The notes under the pieces: model-generated
What the model was told of the DNA's origin: nothing
The model's input: only the letters and a program-made list of their open reading frames with translations
Database searches by the model: none
Assembly: GCA_005799495.1 (NCBI GenBank)
Contig: SYGP01000030.1
Span: 1 to 56,659 of the forward strand
Source: Planctomycetia bacterium
Lineage (GTDB): Bacteria > Planctomycetota > Phycisphaerae > Phycisphaerales > SM1A02
Direction: 5' to 3'
Length of the DNA: 56,659 nucleotides
Translations under genes and position numbers: made by a program
In this document: piece after piece, positions 28,859 to 37,414 of the stretch
Layout: every line of letters starts with the position of its first letter
Numbering within the stretch: the first letter of the stretch is position 1

Positions 28859-29779
28859 TCAGCCGCCGCAAGGACCCCACGCGCCAAGCAGCGCGGCGAG
28901 ATCCGTCCCGTCCGTGGTTCCGTCGTTGTTCACATCGCCCGCAGGACCGCCCCAGCCTGCGAGCACGGATGCCAAATCGCTTGCGTCGACGCTTCCATCA
29001 CCGTTGCGGTCAGCGGGGCAGGCGGGCGTCGGCAGCTCCGCGGAAATGGCGAAGTCGTCGAAGTAGCCGAAGGCGTTGAGCGTGCCGGGCGTCGCATCGG
29101 TCACGCTGAGGAGGTTCGATGCGTAGACGCTGCCAAACAGCGTGGTCTGATGCGTCGCAACCAATGTGCCGTTCGCGCGCAGCTCACCGAAGCCCGTGGC
29201 GACATTCCACCGATACGCGAATTCATTCCATTGCCCGAGCGGGACGATGAACCCTGTCGGCGCTCGGTTCGCCAGCACATAGCCACCGTTCAACAGCGAG
29301 ATCTCGCCGCTCTGCGCACTGACGACGAAGCCTCCCGATGTCTCGAAGGAGCTCTTCGAGATCATGATGCCGAAGCCGGAGGGCAGCGCCTGCGACGCGG
29401 GCAGGAACACCTTGATGCGAGTCTCCAGGACCGTGCGACCTCCCGCGGATGCGGTCGCCCACTGCCCGGTGTTCACCAAGTCCAGCCAGGCCTTCGTGCG
29501 CCCGTTGTTGAACTTCTCGGTGCAGAGGCGAACCATCTTGCCGCTGCCTCCGAAGGGATTGGTGGCCGGATCGACGCCCGCGCCAATGACCAGCGCAGCG
29601 ATCTGGGGGGCATTCATCGATCCCGATACCGCCCATGTGCCCGTGCCTCCGCCCCAAGCGATCTGGCCCGACAGAGATGCGCTTCCGTACGAGTCGAATG
29701 TCGTCGACAGCATGACGGCAGCATTCCCGGTGCGGGAAGCAAGAGCAACAACGGCAAGAAGGACAAGGAGACGCTTCAT
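28859..29779 (-). CDS. exported protein with LamG-like body and dockerin-like repeats
   Basis: About 306 residues from the ATG at 29779. A clear signal peptide (KRLLVLLAVVALASRTGNA) precedes a beta-rich body that looks like a concanavalin-type jelly roll (TTFDSYGSASLSGQIAWGG at its start, FGYFDDFAIS at its end). The C-terminus has two dockerin-like motifs, NGDGSVDASDLASVLAGWG and NNDGTTDGTDLAALLGAWG, flanked by single Cys. Probably an extracellular or surface protein. The gene is divergent from the aminomutase operon with 94 nt between starts. Confidence 0.8.
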   Translation of the reverse strand: MKRLLVLLAVVALASRTGNAAVMLSTTFDSYGSASLSGQIAWGGGTGTWAVSGSMNAPQIAALVIGAGVDPATNPFGGSGKMVRLCTEKFNNGRTKAWLDLVNTGQWATASAGGRTVLETRIKVFLPASQALPSGFGIMISKSSFETSGGFVVSAQSGEISLLNGGYVLANRAPTGFIVPLGQWNEFAYRWNVATGFGELRANGTLVATHQTTLFGSVYASNLLSVTDATPGTLNAFGYFDDFAISAELPTPACPADRNGDGSVDASDLASVLAGWGGPAGDVNNDGTTDGTDLAALLGAWGPCGG

Positions 29780-29830
29780 CACTCCAGATTGTTGCACCAC
29801 TTCGCCGATGTGCAAGCTTCCCCCGACATA

Positions 29831-29860
29831 TTCCGTTTTTCGACCTCGAAGTGTTACACT
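29831..29860 (+). promoter_or_regulatory. candidate promoter of the aminomutase operon with internal palindrome
   Basis: TTCCGT at 29831-29836 and TACACT at 29855-29860, 18 nt apart, resemble -35 and -10 elements 13 nt before the ATG at 29874. Between them TTCGA-CC-TCGAA (29839-29850) is a perfect dyad that could bind a repressor. The AT-rich stretch stands out in the 94-nt gap. Confidence 0.35.
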
Positions 29861-29873
29861 TTCGCGGAAACCT

Positions 29874-31316
29874 ATGGAACTCACCTACACCCAAACAGAT
29901 CGCGAACGCGCCTTCCTCGCTTCCGTCGAGGATGGTCGCCATGAGCGCAACATCATCAATGGACTTGCGCCGTTCCTCGAATCCAATGTTCCTGCGGACA
30001 TGCAGGGGCTCTACTCGGGTGATGAGCTCGTTCAACTTCGCGTGCTCAAGGGCGGCGAACGCGATGTGGAGAAGCGCATGCCAGTCAAGGTGACGCGGCA
30101 CTACTTCGATCTCGCCAAGCAGAGTGCGCCCCTCCGTCGGCTTGTGAAGGCGGATCCATCCGAGACGTACGACCTCGCAGGGTCGGAAGACCCAGGCTTC
30201 CAGATGGACTACAGCCCGGTCGAGGGCATGCTGCACAAGTACGAGATGGGACTGCTGTATGTGGTGTCCACCTGTTCCGCGCACTGCCGATTCTGCTACC
30301 GCGAGGAACTGATCGCTCGAAAGGAAGTCAAGCGGCAGGATGGCACCGTGGCGAAGAAGGGGCTGGCGAACATTCCCGAGGTCATCAGCTACATCCACCG
30401 TTTCAATCAGGCGGTGCGCGACAACGGCGGTCGTCACCCAGTGTGTGGACGCGAGAAGCTCCGCGAGATCCTGATGTCGGGCGGCGACCCGATGGTGCTC
30501 AACAACTCGAAGATCGCCGCATGGCTCGGTGCACTCGCTGAAGCGGGGATCGAATCGATCCGAATCGGCACCAAGGAGATGGCGTTCTATCCAGAGCGCT
30601 TCGACGATGCCTTCTGCGCGATGCTGGATCGTTTCCATGAGATGTACCCCGAGGTGGGTCTGCACATCGTGGTGCACTTCGAGCATCCCGACGAATTCCT
30701 CGCCAAGGATCCCGACGGTCACTACCTACGGAATGGGCAGGGTTTCCTGCAGTGGGTTCCCGCGACAGGCGCGGCGATGCGGCGCCTCAACCAGCGCGGC
30801 TGGCTCAGTGTGGAGAACCAGACGCCGATCATCAAGGGGATCAACGACGACGCGGATGCGCTGCGGATCCTCCAGCGCGAGTTCAAGCGCGCGGGCGGAG
30901 AGAACCACTACTTCTTCTGCGGGCGTGACATCATCGCGTATCGCTCGTTCAATGTGCCGATCGAACGCGCATGGCAACTGCTGAACGAGTCGCAGAAGGG
31001 ACTGTCGGGCGTGGAGAGCCATGCGCGACTTTCGATCACGCACTACAAGGGCAAGACCGAAGTGAATGCCGTCACCAATGAGCCCATTCCAGGGCTCAAG
31101 GGCAGCGAGAACGGTGTGGTCATCTTCAAGATCCTCCGCAATCAGGGACCCGCTGCCGATCGTGGCAAGGTCTGCATCGTCGGCCGCAACCCGAATGCGC
31201 TGTGGTTTGACGGGTACGACGACCGCGTGCTCTTCGACGAGGCAGGGCTGTACGACTACTCGCGCGTGAAGAGCGCTCGAGTGACGCACGCAGCACCGCC
31301 GCCAGTCTGCCGATGA
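29874..31316 (+). CDS. KamA-family radical SAM 2,3-aminomutase, likely acidic amino acid substrate
   Basis: 480 residues, longer than the 416 of clostridial lysine 2,3-aminomutase (LAM). The [4Fe-4S] motif is CSAHCRFC (Cys134, 138, 141), followed by Y-R with Arg143 at the place of the carboxylate-binding arginine. LREILMSGGDPMVL (197-210) is the SAM-binding G-G-D region. By eye against LAM, Lys394 in YKGKTEV takes the place of the PLP lysine 337. The two aspartates that bind the epsilon-amino group of lysine (293 and 330) are not kept: Arg351 lies at the first, a non-acidic residue at the second. Published glutamate 2,3-aminomutase likewise has a basic residue there, so an acidic substrate is suggested. 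The 3' end overlaps the CoA-transferase gene as ATGA. Confidence 0.82.
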   Translation: MELTYTQTDRERAFLASVEDGRHERNIINGLAPFLESNVPADMQGLYSGDELVQLRVLKGGERDVEKRMPVKVTRHYFDLAKQSAPLRRLVKADPSETYDLAGSEDPGFQMDYSPVEGMLHKYEMGLLYVVSTCSAHCRFCYREELIARKEVKRQDGTVAKKGLANIPEVISYIHRFNQAVRDNGGRHPVCGREKLREILMSGGDPMVLNNSKIAAWLGALAEAGIESIRIGTKEMAFYPERFDDAFCAMLDRFHEMYPEVGLHIVVHFEHPDEFLAKDPDGHYLRNGQGFLQWVPATGAAMRRLNQRGWLSVENQTPIIKGINDDADALRILQREFKRAGGENHYFFCGRDIIAYRSFNVPIERAWQLLNESQKGLSGVESHARLSITHYKGKTEVNAVTNEPIPGLKGSENGVVIFKILRNQGPAADRGKVCIVGRNPNALWFDGYDDRVLFDEAGLYDYSRVKSARVTHAAPPPVCR

Positions 31317-32023
31317 TCGACAAGCGTGTGGTGGGTGCGGCAGCCGCGGTGGCGGACATCCCTGATGGCGCCACGGTCATGATTGGCGGCTTCGGTGAGG
31401 CTGGAAGCCCGATCGAACTCATCCACGCGCTGATCGACCAAGGCGCGAAGCAGTTGACGGTCGTCAGCAACAACACGGGCAGCGGCGAAGTGGGACTCGC
31501 TGCGCTGTTGAAGGCGGGTCGCGTGCGCAAGGTCGTCTGCTCATTCCCGCGAACCGCCAACTCCACCGTTTTCCCAGACCTGTACCGCCGCGGTGAAGTC
31601 GAACTTGAACTCGTGCCTCAGGGGACCCTCGCCGAACGCATCCGCGCGGGCGGCGCAGGCATCCCCGCGTTCTTCACGCCGACAGCCGTCGGGACGCCGC
31701 TCGCGCAGGGGAAGGAGCACCGCTTCTTCGGCGAAACAGAGTGCGTTCTTGAGTTCGGCATTCGCGCGGACTTCACGCTCATCAAGGGGCGACGCGCCGA
31801 CACGCATGGCAATGTGGTCTACCACCGCACGGCGCGCAACTTCGCACCGCCGATGGCAACGGCTGCCGGCATCACCGTCGTGCAAGTTGCGGAGGTGGTG
31901 GATGCGGGGCAGCTCGATGCGGAGTCGATTGTCACGCCAGGGATCTTTGTGGACCGCATCGTGCATGTGCCGTCGCCGCAGCAGGAGTCGGCACTGATTG
32001 CGGCAGGGGCGCGCTACCCATGA
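31313..32023 (+). CDS. 3-oxoadipate CoA-transferase-type subunit A (PcaI-like)
   Basis: 236 residues, the usual size for the alpha subunit of a family I CoA-transferase. GATVMIGGFGEAGSPIELIHALI (20-45), IVSNNTGSGEVGLAALL and VCSFPR are the PcaI/ScoA hallmarks, and LVPQGTLAERIRAGGAGIPAFF the central glycine-rich segment. The Pca type is suggested by the S-N-N-x-G-x-G-E-V-G-L-A-A-L-L and V-C-S-F-P-R run. It transfers CoA from succinyl-CoA to a 3-oxo acid. ATGA overlaps at both ends tie it to the aminomutase upstream and to its partner subunit. Confidence 0.88.
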   Translation: MIDKRVVGAAAAVADIPDGATVMIGGFGEAGSPIELIHALIDQGAKQLTVVSNNTGSGEVGLAALLKAGRVRKVVCSFPRTANSTVFPDLYRRGEVELELVPQGTLAERIRAGGAGIPAFFTPTAVGTPLAQGKEHRFFGETECVLEFGIRADFTLIKGRRADTHGNVVYHRTARNFAPPMATAAGITVVQVAEVVDAGQLDAESIVTPGIFVDRIVHVPSPQQESALIAAGARYP

Positions 32024-32709
32024 GGCCGCCTTCGACCGACACACCCGCCGCGATTGGATGGAGCCGCGATGACATCGCGCGCCGACTCGCGCAGGACATT
32101 CCCCACGGGTCGTATGTCAATCTTGGCATCGGCATTCCCGAACTCGTCGCACGCTTTGTCCCCGAGGGACGCACGCTCATCTATCACACCGAGAACGGTC
32201 TGCTTGGCATGGGGCCATCGCCTGCGGTGGGCGCGGGCGATCCAGAACTCATCAACGCGGGCAAGCGACAGGTCACGATGATGCCCGGCGCAGCCTTCTT
32301 CGATCAAGCCACCAGCTTCGCGATGATCCGCGGCGGGCACTTGGACCTCAGCGTGCTCGGCGCACTGCAAGTTTCGCAAGCAGGCGATCTCGCGAACTGG
32401 TCCACGGGTGAGGCGGATGCGATTCCTGCCGTGGGCGGGGCCATGGACCTCGTGGCTGGCGTGCGCCGAGTCTTTGTTCTCACGCAGCACTGCACCAAGG
32501 AAGGTGAAATGAAGTTGGTGGGGGAGTGCACCTACCCTTTGACCGGACGCGCCGTTGTGGACCGCGTCTACACCGACCTGGCGGTGGTCGACATCACGCC
32601 AGATGGCTTCCGAGTCGTTGAACTCGCGCCCGGTGTTGACTTCGGTTTCGTGCAGGAGCGCACCGGCGCAACGCTTCTGCCACCCACCACGCGCGCCGCC
32701 GCCGTGTAA
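32020..32709 (+). CDS. 3-oxoadipate CoA-transferase-type subunit B (PcaJ-like)
   Basis: 229 residues. Catalytic Glu58 lies in HTENGLLGMGP, the family S/T-E-N-G motif that forms the gamma-glutamyl-CoA intermediate. GSYVNLGIGIPELVA, INAGKRQVTMMPG, MIRGGHLDLSVLGALQVS and DLANWSTGEADAIPAVGGAMDL are typical of PcaJ/ScoB. Forms a heterodimer with the product of 31313-32023. No other aromatic (protocatechuate) genes are in this window, so the 3-oxo acid presumably arises another way, by the enzymes encoded on each side. Confidence 0.88.
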   Translation: MRPPSTDTPAAIGWSRDDIARRLAQDIPHGSYVNLGIGIPELVARFVPEGRTLIYHTENGLLGMGPSPAVGAGDPELINAGKRQVTMMPGAAFFDQATSFAMIRGGHLDLSVLGALQVSQAGDLANWSTGEADAIPAVGGAMDLVAGVRRVFVLTQHCTKEGEMKLVGECTYPLTGRAVVDRVYTDLAVVDITPDGFRVVELAPGVDFGFVQERTGATLLPPTTRAAAV

Positions 32710-32749
32710 TCCAGGCGCGAACGAGCAGACACCCCACGGAGTGCAACCA

Positions 32750-34072
32750 ATGACCACCGAGCAAGCAACCACACGAAGCGAGAGTCTCTTTGCGCGAGCG
32801 AGGAAGGTTCTTGCGGGGGGCGTCAGCCGCAACACGGTGCTTCGGGGACCTCATCCGCCGTATGCGGACTTCGGGCGCGGCTGCCGCATCACCGACCTCG
32901 ACGGCAACTCACGCATCGATTTCTCCAACAACATGGCGTCGCTGATCCATGGGCATGCGTTCCCGCCGATCATCGAAGCGGTGACAGCGCAGTTGCAGCG
33001 CGGTTCGGCGTTCATGATGGCAACGGAAGCGGAAGTTCGTTACGCAGAACATCTCGCCGGTCGCAGCGCGGCGTTTGAGCGGCTTCGCTTCGTGAACTCC
33101 GGCACGGAGGCATTGATGGCCGCGCTGAAGGCGGCGCGCGCGTTCACCAATCGCGCGAAGGTCGCGAAGGTGGAGGGCGCGTACCACGGCGGCTATGACT
33201 ACGCGGAGGTCAGTCAGGAGCCAAAGCCTGAAAACTGGGGGAGCATCGACCATCCGAACAGCGTGCCACTGACGCATGGTTCGCCGCAGTCGGCGCTGCA
33301 GGATGTGCTTGTCATGCCGGCGAACGATGTGGATCGCGCAATCGCCATCCTCGATGCGCACCGCAGCGAGGTGGCGTGCGTGCTGCTCGATTTGATGCCG
33401 CATCGCGCGGGACTTCGGCCCGCGGACCCCGCATTCATCGCAGCGATCCGAGAATGGACCGAGCGCAACGGTGCACTGCTGGTGCTCGATGAAGTCATCA
33501 CCTTCCGTACGGAAGTGGGGGGCATGCAGCAACGCTACGGTTTGCGCGCGGACCTGACTGCGCTCGGCAAGATCATCGGCGGAGGGTTCCCTGTTGGGGC
33601 CCTCGCGGGGCGCGCTGATGTGATGGATGTGATGAACCCCCAGGCAAGCAAGTTGCTCTACCCGCTCTCCGGCACCTTCTCCGCGAATCCAGTCACGATG
33701 ACCGCGGGGCTCGCAGCGATGCAGCACTATGACGCGGCGGCGGTCGCCAGGTTGAACGCCCTCGCCGAGCGCGCGATGCACGGCATCCGCGAGGCGATCG
33801 GGCGCACCAATGCCGAGGCATGCGTGACGGGCACGGGATCGATGTTCCGAGTGCACATGAAGCGAACGCCACCGCTCGACTATCGCCAACAGTTCTTGAG
33901 CGCAGATGAATCGAAGCGGCTGAAGCTGCTGCTTGAGCACCTCTTTCAGGAGGGGTTCCTGATGATCAACACCTGCTCGGCGACACTGTCGACGCCGATG
34001 ACGGAGGTGGAAATCGATGCGCTCGTCGACGCGGTCGAGGGCGGACTGCGCCGCATCGCTTCGATGCACTGA
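32750..34072 (+). CDS. class III aminotransferase of the beta-amino-acid / GSA-aminomutase branch
   Basis: About 440 residues from the ATG at 32750, 40 nt after the CoA-transferase. PLP signatures: LRFVNSGTEALMAALKAARAFT near 112-133, YHGGYD (145-150), LLVLDEVITFR with Asp247, and the Schiff-base Lys274 in LTALGKIIGGGFPVGA, then SGTFSANPVTM. The pattern resembles both glutamate-1-semialdehyde aminomutase and the beta-phenylalanine aminotransferase type that removes the amino group from beta-amino acids. A HemL role is unlikely because the gene is in a CoA-transferase/aminomutase operon. Proposed reaction: beta-amino acid to 3-oxo acid. Confidence 0.85.
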   Translation: MTTEQATTRSESLFARARKVLAGGVSRNTVLRGPHPPYADFGRGCRITDLDGNSRIDFSNNMASLIHGHAFPPIIEAVTAQLQRGSAFMMATEAEVRYAEHLAGRSAAFERLRFVNSGTEALMAALKAARAFTNRAKVAKVEGAYHGGYDYAEVSQEPKPENWGSIDHPNSVPLTHGSPQSALQDVLVMPANDVDRAIAILDAHRSEVACVLLDLMPHRAGLRPADPAFIAAIREWTERNGALLVLDEVITFRTEVGGMQQRYGLRADLTALGKIIGGGFPVGALAGRADVMDVMNPQASKLLYPLSGTFSANPVTMTAGLAAMQHYDAAAVARLNALAERAMHGIREAIGRTNAEACVTGTGSMFRVHMKRTPPLDYRQQFLSADESKRLKLLLEHLFQEGFLMINTCSATLSTPMTEVEIDALVDAVEGGLRRIASMH

Positions 34073-34101
34073 AGCGCGGTGAGGCGTCCGCCATGGGCGA
34101 G

Positions 34102-35307
34102 TCAGCGCCGCTCGAAGAGCAGCGCGAGACCCTGCCCGACACCCACGCACAGCGCGGCAATGCCACGCTCCGCATCGCGCCGCTTCATTTCATGCAGCAG
34201 GGTGGTCGCCAGCCGCGCACCGCTCGCCCCGAGCGGATGCCCGATCGCGATCGCACCACCGTTCACATTCACCCGCGATGGGTCGAGGGCAAGTTCGCGC
34301 ACGCACGCCACTGCCTGCGCGGCGAATGCCTCGTTGATCTCAAAGAGATCGACCGAGGCAGCCGTGATGCCCGCACGCTCGAGCAGCGACTGGATTGCAG
34401 GCACCGGGCCGATGCCCATCTGTGCCGGATCCACCCCGACCGCGCACCCGCGCCCGACGAAGCCAAGGGGCGTCAACCCAAACTGTGCTGCTTTCGACGC
34501 ATCCATCAGCAGCAGCGCGGCCGCGCCATCGTTGACGCCAGACGAGTTGCCTGCGGTCACGCTGCCGTCCTCCGCCTTGGTGAATGCGGGCTTCAGGGCT
34601 GCGAGTTTCTCGAGTGTGGTATCGGCGCGCGGATGCTCGTCGGTGTCGAACACCAGCGCCGGTCGCTTGCCTTGTGGAATCTCCACCGGCACGATCTCGT
34701 CACGGAAGCGACCCGCAGCGTTCGCTGCCGCCCAACGCCGCTGACTCTCGAGCGCGAATTGGTCCTGGTCGCTGCGGCTGACATGGAACGCACGCGCAAC
34801 ATTCTCGGCTGTTTCTCCCATCGAAAAGGGATGATGCATGGCACTCAGCCGCGGATTCACGAAGCGCCATCCGATCGTGGTGTCATGCATCTCCTGCCCA
34901 CGCCCAAACGGTTGGTCAGCCTTCGACAGCACAAGTGGCGCACGACTCATCGACTCGACTCCGCCCGCAATGATCACATCCGCCGATGCAGACTCGATCA
35001 TGCGCGCAGCCACATGCACTGCCTCAAGCCCCGATGCACAGAGGCGGTTCACGGTCGCGCCCGGAACGCGCACGGGAAGTCCCGCAAGGAGCGCCGCCAT
35101 CCGCGCCACATTGCGGTTGTCTTCGCCTGCCTGATTCGCAGCACCGAAATACACATCGTCCACAAGATCCGCACCAACTTTTGCGCGATCGAGTACGGCG
35201 CGAATCACATGCGCAGCCAGATCATCAGGGCGCACACACGACAGCGTTCCCCCGTATCGCCCGACAGGTGTGCGGACGGCTGCAATGACGGCTGCGCGGC
35301 GGGGCAT
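34102..35307 (-). CDS. thiolase, PcaF-like (3-oxoadipyl-CoA / acetyl-CoA C-acyltransferase)
   Basis: 401 residues. Nucleophile Cys90 in [21 protein letters not shown] with the His, and a second Cys in ALCVGVGQG. The N-terminal half has [24 protein letters not shown], a run typical of beta-ketoadipyl-CoA thiolase (PcaF), which cleaves 3-oxoadipyl-CoA to succinyl-CoA and acetyl-CoA. [13 protein letters not shown] is present near residue 325. It converges on the aminotransferase gene with 29 nt between stops, so it is not in the operon but completes the same pathway. It starts 71 nt from the divergent pyrE. Confidence 0.9.
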
Positions 35308-36511: not shown

Positions 36512-37414
36512 TCAGGATCCCCATGCTCCGAGCAGCATTGTCAGATCGGCACCATCGACGATGCCGCTGAAGTCGATGTCAGCGGCGGTCGGTTCCGTGG
36601 ACCCCATGAGTCCAATCAGCGCAGCAAGATCCTGCCCGTCGATGATTCCGTCCATCGTCAAGTCGATTGCCGATCCGACGCTGAATGCCTGCGCACAGCC
36701 CGCACTCGGCCAGCCATGGACTTCCGATGTGTACGCGCCCACAACCAGTCCATCTGCTGCGAGGCACACGGAACTCCCGAACCCGCTGATCGACACACCG
36801 CTGCCGACCGCTGCATCTCCGACCACCGTTGCCACATCGAGCCACTCACCTGCCAAGTTCCGCCGAAAGAGGTGAACAGCACCCGCACCCAAGGACCTGC
36901 CGACATTCGTGCTGAACGCACCCACGGCGATCAATCCCGCCTCATCGTCGATGCTCGAACCCATGCCGTCCCCCGGGTGCCCGTCGATGCTCGAAAGCTT
37001 GCCTGCAAAGGCGAAAGTCCCATCGGCGGTTCGGTGATATGCATAGACCGCCCCTCGTCCAAACTCGCCGTCGACAACCGCATTCGGTGAGCCGCAGAAC
37101 ACGGTGTTTCCTACGGCATGCACGCGCGTTCCAAACTCGTTGTGTGCCGTCCCATCGGGCGCGATCAGTCGCTGCAGGAACGAGAATGTTCCATCCGCCT
37201 GACGGCGAAAGACAACAACCGACCCTTGGTTGACTTGGGTTCCGACATCGTCCCAAAGCGCCCCCACAAAGAGCGTGTCTCCTCGCAGCGCCATATCGAA
37301 GCCAAAGACATCAAAGGCTGCGCCGTTCGGATCGACAAGCTGCTGTGTCTGCTGCCAAACACCCGCGGTCGACCCCAGCGGGCGTGTCGCACCAAATGGC
37401 ACTGATCGCAACAC
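36512..37414 (-). CDS. FG-GAP-repeat exported protein with dockerin-like repeats (N-terminus displaced)
   Basis: This frame codes for 300 residues of repeated FG-GAP-like blades: AFDVFGFDMALRGDTLFVGA, then NEFGTRVHAVGNTVFCG, then DGMGSSIDDEAGLIAVGA and SISGFGSSVCLAADGLVVGA. The C-terminus has two dockerin-like motifs (MDGIIDGQDLAALIGLMG, FSGIVDGADLTMLLGAWG). It has no signal peptide of its own; one is found in another frame immediately upstream (37311-37550). The first blade looks joined across frames, with about nine residues of the blade missing, so the gene is probably broken or its sequence contains an indel. It lies convergent to the thioesterase gene. Confidence 0.75.
   Translation of the reverse strand: MLRSVPFGATRPLGSTAGVWQQTQQLVDPNGAAFDVFGFDMALRGDTLFVGALWDDVGTQVNQGSVVVFRRQADGTFSFLQRLIAPDGTAHNEFGTRVHAVGNTVFCGSPNAVVDGEFGRGAVYAYHRTADGTFAFAGKLSSIDGHPGDGMGSSIDDEAGLIAVGAFSTNVGRSLGAGAVHLFRRNLAGEWLDVATVVGDAAVGSGVSISGFGSSVCLAADGLVVGAYTSEVHGWPSAGCAQAFSVGSAIDLTMDGIIDGQDLAALIGLMGSTEPTAADIDFSGIVDGADLTMLLGAWGS

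Follow-up and report, generated by a model that had tools for sequence, protein, structure and literature searches.

Two described radical enzymes stand closest to the one considered here. In lysine 2,3-aminomutase (LAM), pyridoxal phosphate (PLP) is carried by a residue that we take to be Lys337, the alpha-carboxylate of the substrate is presumably held by Arg134 and its side chain by Asp293 and Asp330, a numbering and a set of roles for which Lepore et al. 2005 is said to be the source. A passage on these enzymes gives LAM two lysine-binding aspartates and glutamate 2,3-aminomutase a lysine and an asparagine in their place (PMC3965090). The window, as we call the whole stretch of DNA that was analysed, covers positions 1 to 56,659 (56,659 nucleotides) of contig SYGP01000030.1 from a Planctomycetia bacterium (GCA_005799495.1; GTDB lineage Phycisphaerales, SM1A02). 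At 29874..31316, on the plus strand, it encodes a 480-residue radical S-adenosylmethionine (SAM) and PLP aminomutase homologue, a member of the KamA superfamily that we place in a new subfamily, type 1, on the basis of profile scores, alignments and a fold match.

We consider it probable, judging from sequence and gene neighborhood, that this protein is a PLP-dependent radical SAM 2,3-aminomutase that acts on L-2-aminoadipate and feeds a 3-oxoadipate branch. Since partner genes of 3-oxoadipate type are conserved beside the mutase, we favor an acidic C6 substrate, and 2-aminoadipate over glutamate; with a 3-oxoadipyl-CoA (coenzyme A) type of thiolase at the end of the route, 2-aminoadipate would be the amino acid that gives 3-oxoadipate in this way. 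The substrate and every catalytic step are what we infer, as follows. Lysine would be converted by way of L-piperideine-6-carboxylate (P6C) to 2-aminoadipate by a P6C dehydrogenase encoded elsewhere in the genome. The mutase would then shift the amino group by one carbon to give 3-aminoadipate, with Arg351 holding the side-chain carboxylate where Asp293 of LAM holds the lysine ammonium group, Arg143 holding the alpha-carboxylate and Lys394 carrying PLP, all by homology. The adjacent class III aminotransferase would convert 3-aminoadipate to 3-oxoadipate, which would be activated to 3-oxoadipyl-CoA and cleaved to succinyl-CoA and acetyl-CoA.

The predicted aminomutase and its substrate pocket

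A first-pass annotation of this DNA, aligned by eye over 30870-31080, had proposed that Arg351 occupies the Asp293 position of LAM and that a non-acidic residue occupies the Asp330 position, and the residue observation is confirmed. Codon n of the mutase begins at 29874+3(n-1), which puts codons 351 (30924..30926), 387 (31032..31034) and 394 (31053..31055) within that stretch and the CX3CX2C cluster motif (Cys134, Cys138 and Cys141), together with Arg143, the equivalent of LAM Arg134, upstream of it (30273..30302). When the window protein was aligned with the best 80 of 153 relatives, at 72-98% identity, Arg351, Asp352, Ser387, His390 and Lys394 proved invariant in 81 of 81 rows. The profile of this family aligned to chain A of the LAM structure 2a5h in three pieces, one of which sets Arg351 on chain position 293, an aspartate; that piece scores 3.4 bits and ends before Lys337, too weak to be used alone, and we therefore aligned 37 KamA-type proteins as a bridging panel. 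The panel gives the same correspondence for Arg351 and places Ser387 at the Asp330 position, so that the window mutase has aspartate at neither substrate position. The alignments likewise bear out that the cysteine triad, Arg143 and Lys394, the predicted Schiff-base lysine at the position of LAM Lys337, are kept, and that the PLP loop departs from the PGGGGK of LAM: Lys394 lies within the segment ITHYKGK.

The PDB entry that best matches an AlphaFold2 model of the mutase is LAM 2a5h, chain B (E 2.5e-10, template modelling scores 0.49 and 0.57). The model has a mean pLDDT (predicted local distance difference test) of 67, falling below 50 at residues 101-163, which include the cysteine motif, at 348-359 and at 389-394; because confidence is low at these pocket segments, we take the model to support the fold only and not the pocket. 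With that fold (low-pLDDT model), the CX3CX2C motif and the PLP lysine, the protein has the traits of the PLP-dependent radical SAM aminomutase superfamily. In two homologues of the window type, stops that seemed to lie in frame were checked, and each is the terminal codon.

Within that superfamily the mutase is, by its sequence, a member of neither the LAM nor the glutamate 2,3-aminomutase family. It scores 72 bits against TIGR03820 (lysine 2,3-aminomutase; cut-off 525.4), 76.8 against TIGR04368 (glutamate 2,3-aminomutase; cut-off 650) and 86 against the arginine aminomutase model (cut-off 600); the best of the NCBIfam models is TIGR00238 (KamA family), at 99.2 bits, which also misses its cut-off of 199.2, and Pfam returned no match at E 0.001. 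The panel column of Arg351 holds arginine in 26 of the 37 proteins, the window mutase included, aspartate in 10 (five LAM-like, four EpmB-like and one AblA-like) and lysine in a single glutamate-aminomutase-like protein, L087; at the Ser387 column the same 10 rows carry Asp or Glu and the other 27 a non-acidic residue. In the panel tree the window type forms one clade (100/100) inside the group of 26 arginine-bearing proteins, and a supported branch (100/100) separates that group from the LAM, glutamate-like and EpmB-like rows. L087 groups with LAM, outside the arginine group, on a long branch; L186, described below, is also long-branched, and the finer order within the arginine group is uncertain.

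These placements bear on the first alternative, in which the enzyme has arrived convergently at glutamate 2,3-aminomutase activity, converting glutamate through 3-aminoglutarate to 3-oxoglutarate, which would be either activated and cleaved or decarboxylated to acetoacetate and so taken to acetyl-CoA. Glutamate is present in every cell, the operon order suits this chemistry as well, and the Asp293 position is occupied by a basic residue, just as an excerpt gives the glutamate enzyme a lysine there (PMC3965090). Against this stand the 76.8 bits on the glutamate model where 650 are asked, the grouping of L087 (on its long branch) with LAM and not with the arginine group, and the thiolase and CoA-transferase discussed below, both of which fall in groups of 3-oxoadipate type; for the thiolase this applies to three layouts of the operon. 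We regard the glutamate reading as quite unlikely. The earlier proposal that the substrate side chain is probably acidic, based on the basic and amide residues of the glutamate enzyme, which that source does give as Lys and Asn, is partly supported. It is right in direction, and the evidence speaks most for an acidic side chain once the 3-oxoadipate-type neighbors are counted, but the residue argument by itself does not suffice. Arginine is widespread at this position (26/37), including in proteins from other settings, and therefore does not alone name a substrate; by the curated cut-off the enzyme is not of the glutamate family, and 2-aminoadipate, listed earlier among the candidates for assay, is favored over glutamate.

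Two sets of arginine-type relatives were seen outside such operons. L186:4980-6032, on plasmid pRSpC104f of Rhizobium sp. C104, is annotated as a lysine 2,3-aminomutase, carries arginine at the Asp293 column and a non-acidic residue at the second, and adjoins a condensation-domain gene; judging from these residues, its name is possibly wrong. Two further arginine-type KamA-like groups occur in other planctomycetes (L159-L166), and these eight stretches gave no match at E 1e-10 to the window CoA-transferase, aminotransferase or thiolase.

Partner genes and their recurrence

Directly downstream of the mutase lies a CoA-transferase pair. Subunit A (ctA, 31313..32023, plus strand) starts 4 bases before the mutase stop is complete and is of PcaI type by profile, identity and tree; subunit B (ctB, 32020..32709, plus strand), which overlaps ctA by 4 bases, is of the PcaJ/ScoB family. 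Both exceed their subfamily cut-offs, ctA with 320.7 bits on the PcaI/ScoA model TIGR02429 (cut-off 128.5) and ctB with 290.9 on the PcaJ/ScoB model TIGR02428 (cut-off 243.55). The ctA protein is 59% identical to subunit A of a Rhizobium phaseoli cluster and of a Sphingobium catechol cluster, both of which end in pcaF, and only 40-45% identical to E. coli AtoD and to acetyl-beta-lysine-type, kce-linked and Azospirillum proteins; a branch with support 98 separates the pcaF-cluster set from the latter four. No promoter-like or terminator-like sites were found between 29500 and 34300.

It could be argued that the mutase acts as a lysine 2,3-aminomutase and that its operon breaks down beta-lysine, resembling the acetyl-beta-lysine route with its GNAT acetyltransferase and deacetylase. 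An acetyl-beta-lysine-type cluster on a Sinorhizobium medicae plasmid (L184) likewise has both CoA-transferase subunits along with a thiolase and a class III aminotransferase that is HemL-like. We give this alternative scarcely any credence, however, for both lysine-binding aspartates are replaced and the LAM model yields 72 bits where 525 are needed; the five genes of the window set fill 29874-35307, and none matched an acetyltransferase or deacylase family; identity to the L184 proteins is 39.5% for ctA and 48.5% for the thiolase, as against 59% to PcaI and 54-57% to PcaF/PaaJ; and the L184 thiolase lacks the Arg65 and TTIGWR loop described below.

The third partner (32753..34072, plus strand) is an aminotransferase of class III, which profile scores, a PDB match and Arg26 assign to the HemL-like type associated with beta-amino acids. 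Its closest PDB match is 6K8H from Sphaerobacter thermophilus, at 393 bits, compared with 213 for the best glutamate-semialdehyde aminomutase, and it reaches 312.2 bits on TIGR00713 (hemL), below the cut-off of 527.3. According to a paper known to us in excerpt, 6K8H transaminates beta- and gamma-amino acids, aliphatic beta-amino acids among them, and its Arg36 might bind the carboxylate (PMC10589169); Arg26 of the window protein aligns with that residue.

The thiolase gene (34102..35307, minus strand) is convergent with the mutase-ctA-ctB-aminotransferase operon, and its product falls in the 3-oxoadipyl-CoA (PcaF/PaaJ) clade. It scores 555.5 bits on TIGR02430 (pcaF; cut-off 597) and at most 468 on models not named 3-oxoadipyl-CoA thiolase, among the 25 of 47 models listed. 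In Pseudomonas putida PcaF, according to portions of one report, acyl tails are held by T143-G146 and Arg148 of a covering loop, and the site as depicted also includes Arg65 of the neighboring subunit (PMC7337054). The window thiolase keeps Cys90, Arg65, T143-G146 and Arg148 at the same numbers (TTIGWR at 143-148), and Arg65 and the GWR of the loop are kept in all 17 mutase-linked thiolases of the panel (the window protein, 11 of window type, two of rearranged layout and three of second type, the last two introduced below); E. coli AtoB and the acetyl-beta-lysine-type and kce-linked thiolases lack both Arg65 and the GWR-loop contacts. On our reading, Arg65 and Arg148 would bind the distal carboxylate. 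Identity to the PcaF/PaaJ references is 54-57%, and the window thiolase lies within their clade, in which the mutase-linked thiolases occupy two separate parts.

The same two enzymes bear on whether the substrate might be aromatic, with beta-tyrosine or beta-phenylalanine being transaminated, activated and thiolysed to an aroyl-CoA. The aminotransferase family does include transaminases for aromatic beta-amino acids, and a tyrosine phenol-lyase gene adjoins one operon of the second type, L137. That gene was met at a single locus among those examined, the best PDB match of the aminotransferase also accepts aliphatic beta-amino acids according to the excerpted source (PMC10589169), and the thiolase is of PcaF/PaaJ type, with Arg65 and Arg148 kept and with 417 and 391 bits on the two BktB models against 555 on pcaF. 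An aromatic substrate is, in our estimation, very improbable.

The gene set recurs. Among 80 related loci, ctA is found within 5 kb of the mutase at 78, ctB at 75, the aminotransferase at 70 and the thiolase at 55; at the 59 loci that have at least 5 kb of downstream sequence, ctA, ctB and the aminotransferase are each present at all 59 and the convergent thiolase at 51. Upstream, a divergent gene recurs in 33 of 81 loci, many of the loci being cut by contig ends, and the single member scanned encodes an RpiR-type helix-turn-helix plus an SIS domain. In the window itself, two open reading frames on the minus strand, at 28859-29884 and 36512-37414, end in repeats that by eye look dockerin-like.

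We also sampled 201 genomes of the same order, the organism's own and 200 drawn. A window-type mutase (at least 490 bits) is encoded by 52 of them, in two cases as fragments, and a thiolase of at least 534 bits occurs in 51 of these 52 as opposed to 22 of the 149 without the mutase, counts that ignore kinship among the genomes. The thiolase exceeds the curated pcaF cut-off in nine genomes, four with a window-type mutase and five with a second KamA-like family. In two of the four (L177 and L178) the mutase gene points away from an operon ordered ctA-ctB-thiolase-aminotransferase, and the aminotransferase there shares just 32-33% identity with that of the window; in the other two, mutase and thiolase are about 2.4 kb apart by coordinates. 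Of the 22 thiolase-positive genomes without the mutase, 17 loci were inspected: nine lie next to paaA (named by family search at L128 and L135, and at the other seven by match to these), five are second-type operons and three (L129, L140 and L141) show neither within the stretch covered. L140:7516-8721 and L141:6754-7947 encode PcaF/PaaJ-like thiolases with no window-type mutase in the genome and no paaA nearby in the stretch, and the label of PaaJ that L140 had received from its layout in the thiolase tree was dropped as unsupported.

Members of the second family, or type 2, are about 540 residues long, and the one at L136 shares 22% identity with the window mutase across 383 residues. They have arginine at the Asp293 column of the panel and form a separate clade in its tree. 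Five operons, at L136:2947-8397, L137:723-6234, L138:6966-12482, L168:6290-11746 and L169:6920-12581 (gene content at these and related loci is from tblastn), run co-directionally as mutase-ctA-ctB-aminotransferase-thiolase, in genomes that lack the window-type mutase, and their partner proteins are 61-69% (ctA), 66-68% (ctB), 57-62% (aminotransferase) and 53-57% (thiolase) identical to those of the window. The tyrosine phenol-lyase gene mentioned above (L137:6434-7849; 746 bits, cut-off 721) is divergent from its operon. A third arrangement occurs on a plasmid of Mesorhizobium sp. 113-3-3 (L113/L114), where genes for a ferredoxin, an aminotransferase of class III and both subunits of a CoA-transferase come after a mutase homologue of 65% identity. 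The alpha subunit of that transferase resembles glutaconate CoA-transferase and not PcaI; this set lies a few kb from a BREX-1 defence system, on what is a conjugative plasmid. Taking the rearranged, second-type and Mesorhizobium layouts together, we note that the mutase, aminotransferase and CoA-transferase stay together even though each has been replaced in some lineage. We lean, if by a modest measure, towards the view that two separate arginine-bearing KamA-like families make 3-aminoadipate and channel lysine carbon into the beta-ketoadipate end steps without aromatic chemistry, an undescribed route.

The recurrence also speaks to a further alternative: the substrate might be some other amino acid whose side chain carries a carboxylate or an amide, or the mutase might run in reverse and supply a beta-amino acid as a storage compound or osmoprotectant, while the CoA genes serve a neighboring need. 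Arginine-type relatives do exist in other settings, beside the condensation-domain gene and at the eight planctomycete loci without CoA genes, and the organism's own genome has another outlet for 2-aminoadipate, an HglS homologue. A complete degradative set at 51 of the 59 loci with room for it, recurring in two other layouts, is harder to reconcile with such a role, which we think unlikely.

Supply of 2-aminoadipate and standing of the proposed route

P6C dehydrogenase forms 2-aminoadipate from lysine. The organism's own genome encodes a homologue at 719.9 bits, just under the cut-off of 730, and the enzyme is found in 48 of the 52 mutase genomes as compared with 98 of the 149 others. Lysine 6-transaminase occurs in 12 of the 52 and in 7 of the 149; its co-occurrence with the thiolase (18/19) was discarded as evidence, being confounded by phenylacetate (paaA) clusters. 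Matches to Sacchrp_dh_C, the C-terminal domain of saccharopine dehydrogenase, are uninformative, since they occur in 124 of the 201 genomes and also in six same-genus genomes without the mutase. At five places (G180:C289:5552-7902, G126:C29, G072:C24, G129:C123 and G165:C44) the P6C dehydrogenase gene adjoins a Sacchrp_dh_C gene of about 70 bits, a pairing that fits, as expected, the lysine 6-dehydrogenase route; a comparable gene of 70 bits occurs in the organism's own genome, on a different contig. At L148:1-7391 (Tistrella mobilis pTM2), a 66% match to ctA lies near genes for an L-piperidine-6-carboxylate dehydrogenase, a DUF1338 protein and an aminotransferase, neighbors that are likely to be lysine catabolic genes.

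The usual source of 3-oxoadipate is an aromatic one, through intradiol dioxygenase. No such enzyme was found in the organism's own genome at E 1e-10, and 6 of the 52 mutase genomes have one; judged by this one marker, the aromatic source of 3-oxoadipate appears to be absent.

A number of points weigh against the proposed route. No gene forming 2-aminoadipate lies within the operon, no lysine 6-transaminase was found in the organism's own genome at E 1e-100, and P6C dehydrogenase is present in all six sampled same-genus genomes, none of which has the mutase. HglS (PF07063), of which the own genome encodes the homologue noted above, is a known outlet for 2-aminoadipate by way of 2-oxoadipate, and an anticorrelation between mutase and HglS was sought and not found (17/52 versus 39/149). 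Arginine at the Asp293 column marks a broad group by the panel alignment and is not diagnostic of substrate. The thiolase falls below the curated pcaF cut-off, and thiolases encoded beside paaA in genomes of this order are closer to it than PcaF is; 8 of the 59 loci with room for one lack a close thiolase (L006, L026, L035, L037, L044, L046, L048 and L050); and none is annotated within the 100 kb viewed around the Mesorhizobium set, where the gene table is incomplete. The kinship left in the co-occurrence counts belongs here too, as does the tyrosine phenol-lyase gene beside the L137 operon, which leaves some chance for an aromatic substrate. Taking all of this into account, we regard the assignment as a 2-aminoadipate 2,3-aminomutase as likely on present sequence comparisons.

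The openly licensed literature that we searched yielded no description of an aminomutase route between 2-aminoadipate and 3-aminoadipate, which does not prove its absence; 3-aminoadipate or a like name turned up in one meteorite paper and in one reference title, whose wording, as far as a title can tell, looks like a slip for alpha-aminoadipic acid. If the proposal is correct, 2-aminoadipate 2,3-aminomutase would be a new radical enzyme activity, 3-aminoadipate would gain a biological role at a new junction of lysine and 3-oxoadipate metabolism, and a function would be assigned to a KamA subfamily encoded by roughly one in four of the genomes sampled from this planctomycete order (52/201). Annotations of lysine 2,3-aminomutase that carry arginine at the Asp293 position deserve re-examination.

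Comparison with known systems

The window mutase resembles LAM (KamA/AblA; 2a5h, TIGR03820) in that LAM is its top fold match and in the positions of the CX3CX2C motif, Arg143 and the PLP lysine; it differs in having arginine and serine for both lysine-binding aspartates and ITHYKGK as its PLP loop. With glutamate 2,3-aminomutase (TIGR04368), as characterized in an available extract, it shares a basic residue at the Asp293 column and the lack of an acidic one at the Asp330 column, but the pair is Arg/Ser in the window protein and Lys/Asn in the glutamate enzyme (PMC3965090). Like the window set, the acetyl-beta-lysine-type cluster of Sinorhizobium medicae pSU277_3 (L184:1370-9164) keeps aminotransferase, CoA-transferase and thiolase genes together, in this case as CoA-transferase A and B, deacylase, thiolase, GNAT and class III aminotransferase; it differs from the window set in possessing the GNAT acetyltransferase and the deacylase, and its CoA-transferase and thiolase belong to other groups. 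That plasmid does have a gene annotated as lysine 2,3-aminomutase, which lies outside the locus.

For the aminotransferase, the nearest parallels are 6K8H and the Kat enzyme of lysine fermentation, class III aminotransferases that act on a beta-amino group; going by sections of two reports, 6K8H takes free beta-amino acids and the HemL-like Kat takes 3-aminobutyryl-CoA (PMC10589169, PMC3149608). The end of the proposed route corresponds to the last steps of the beta-ketoadipate pathway, PcaIJ and PcaF/PaaJ, in the groups to which the CoA-transferase and thiolase belong and in the acyl-tail contacts of the thiolase. Unlike that pathway, the window set would, on our prediction, receive its 3-oxoadipate from an aminomutase and an aminotransferase and not from cleavage of an aromatic ring. 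The route through 2-oxoadipate and HglS would, if our assignment is right, start from the same compound, 2-aminoadipate. The HglS route takes off the alpha-amino group directly and yields 2-hydroxyglutarate, whereas the route proposed for the window would begin by shifting the amino group to C3.

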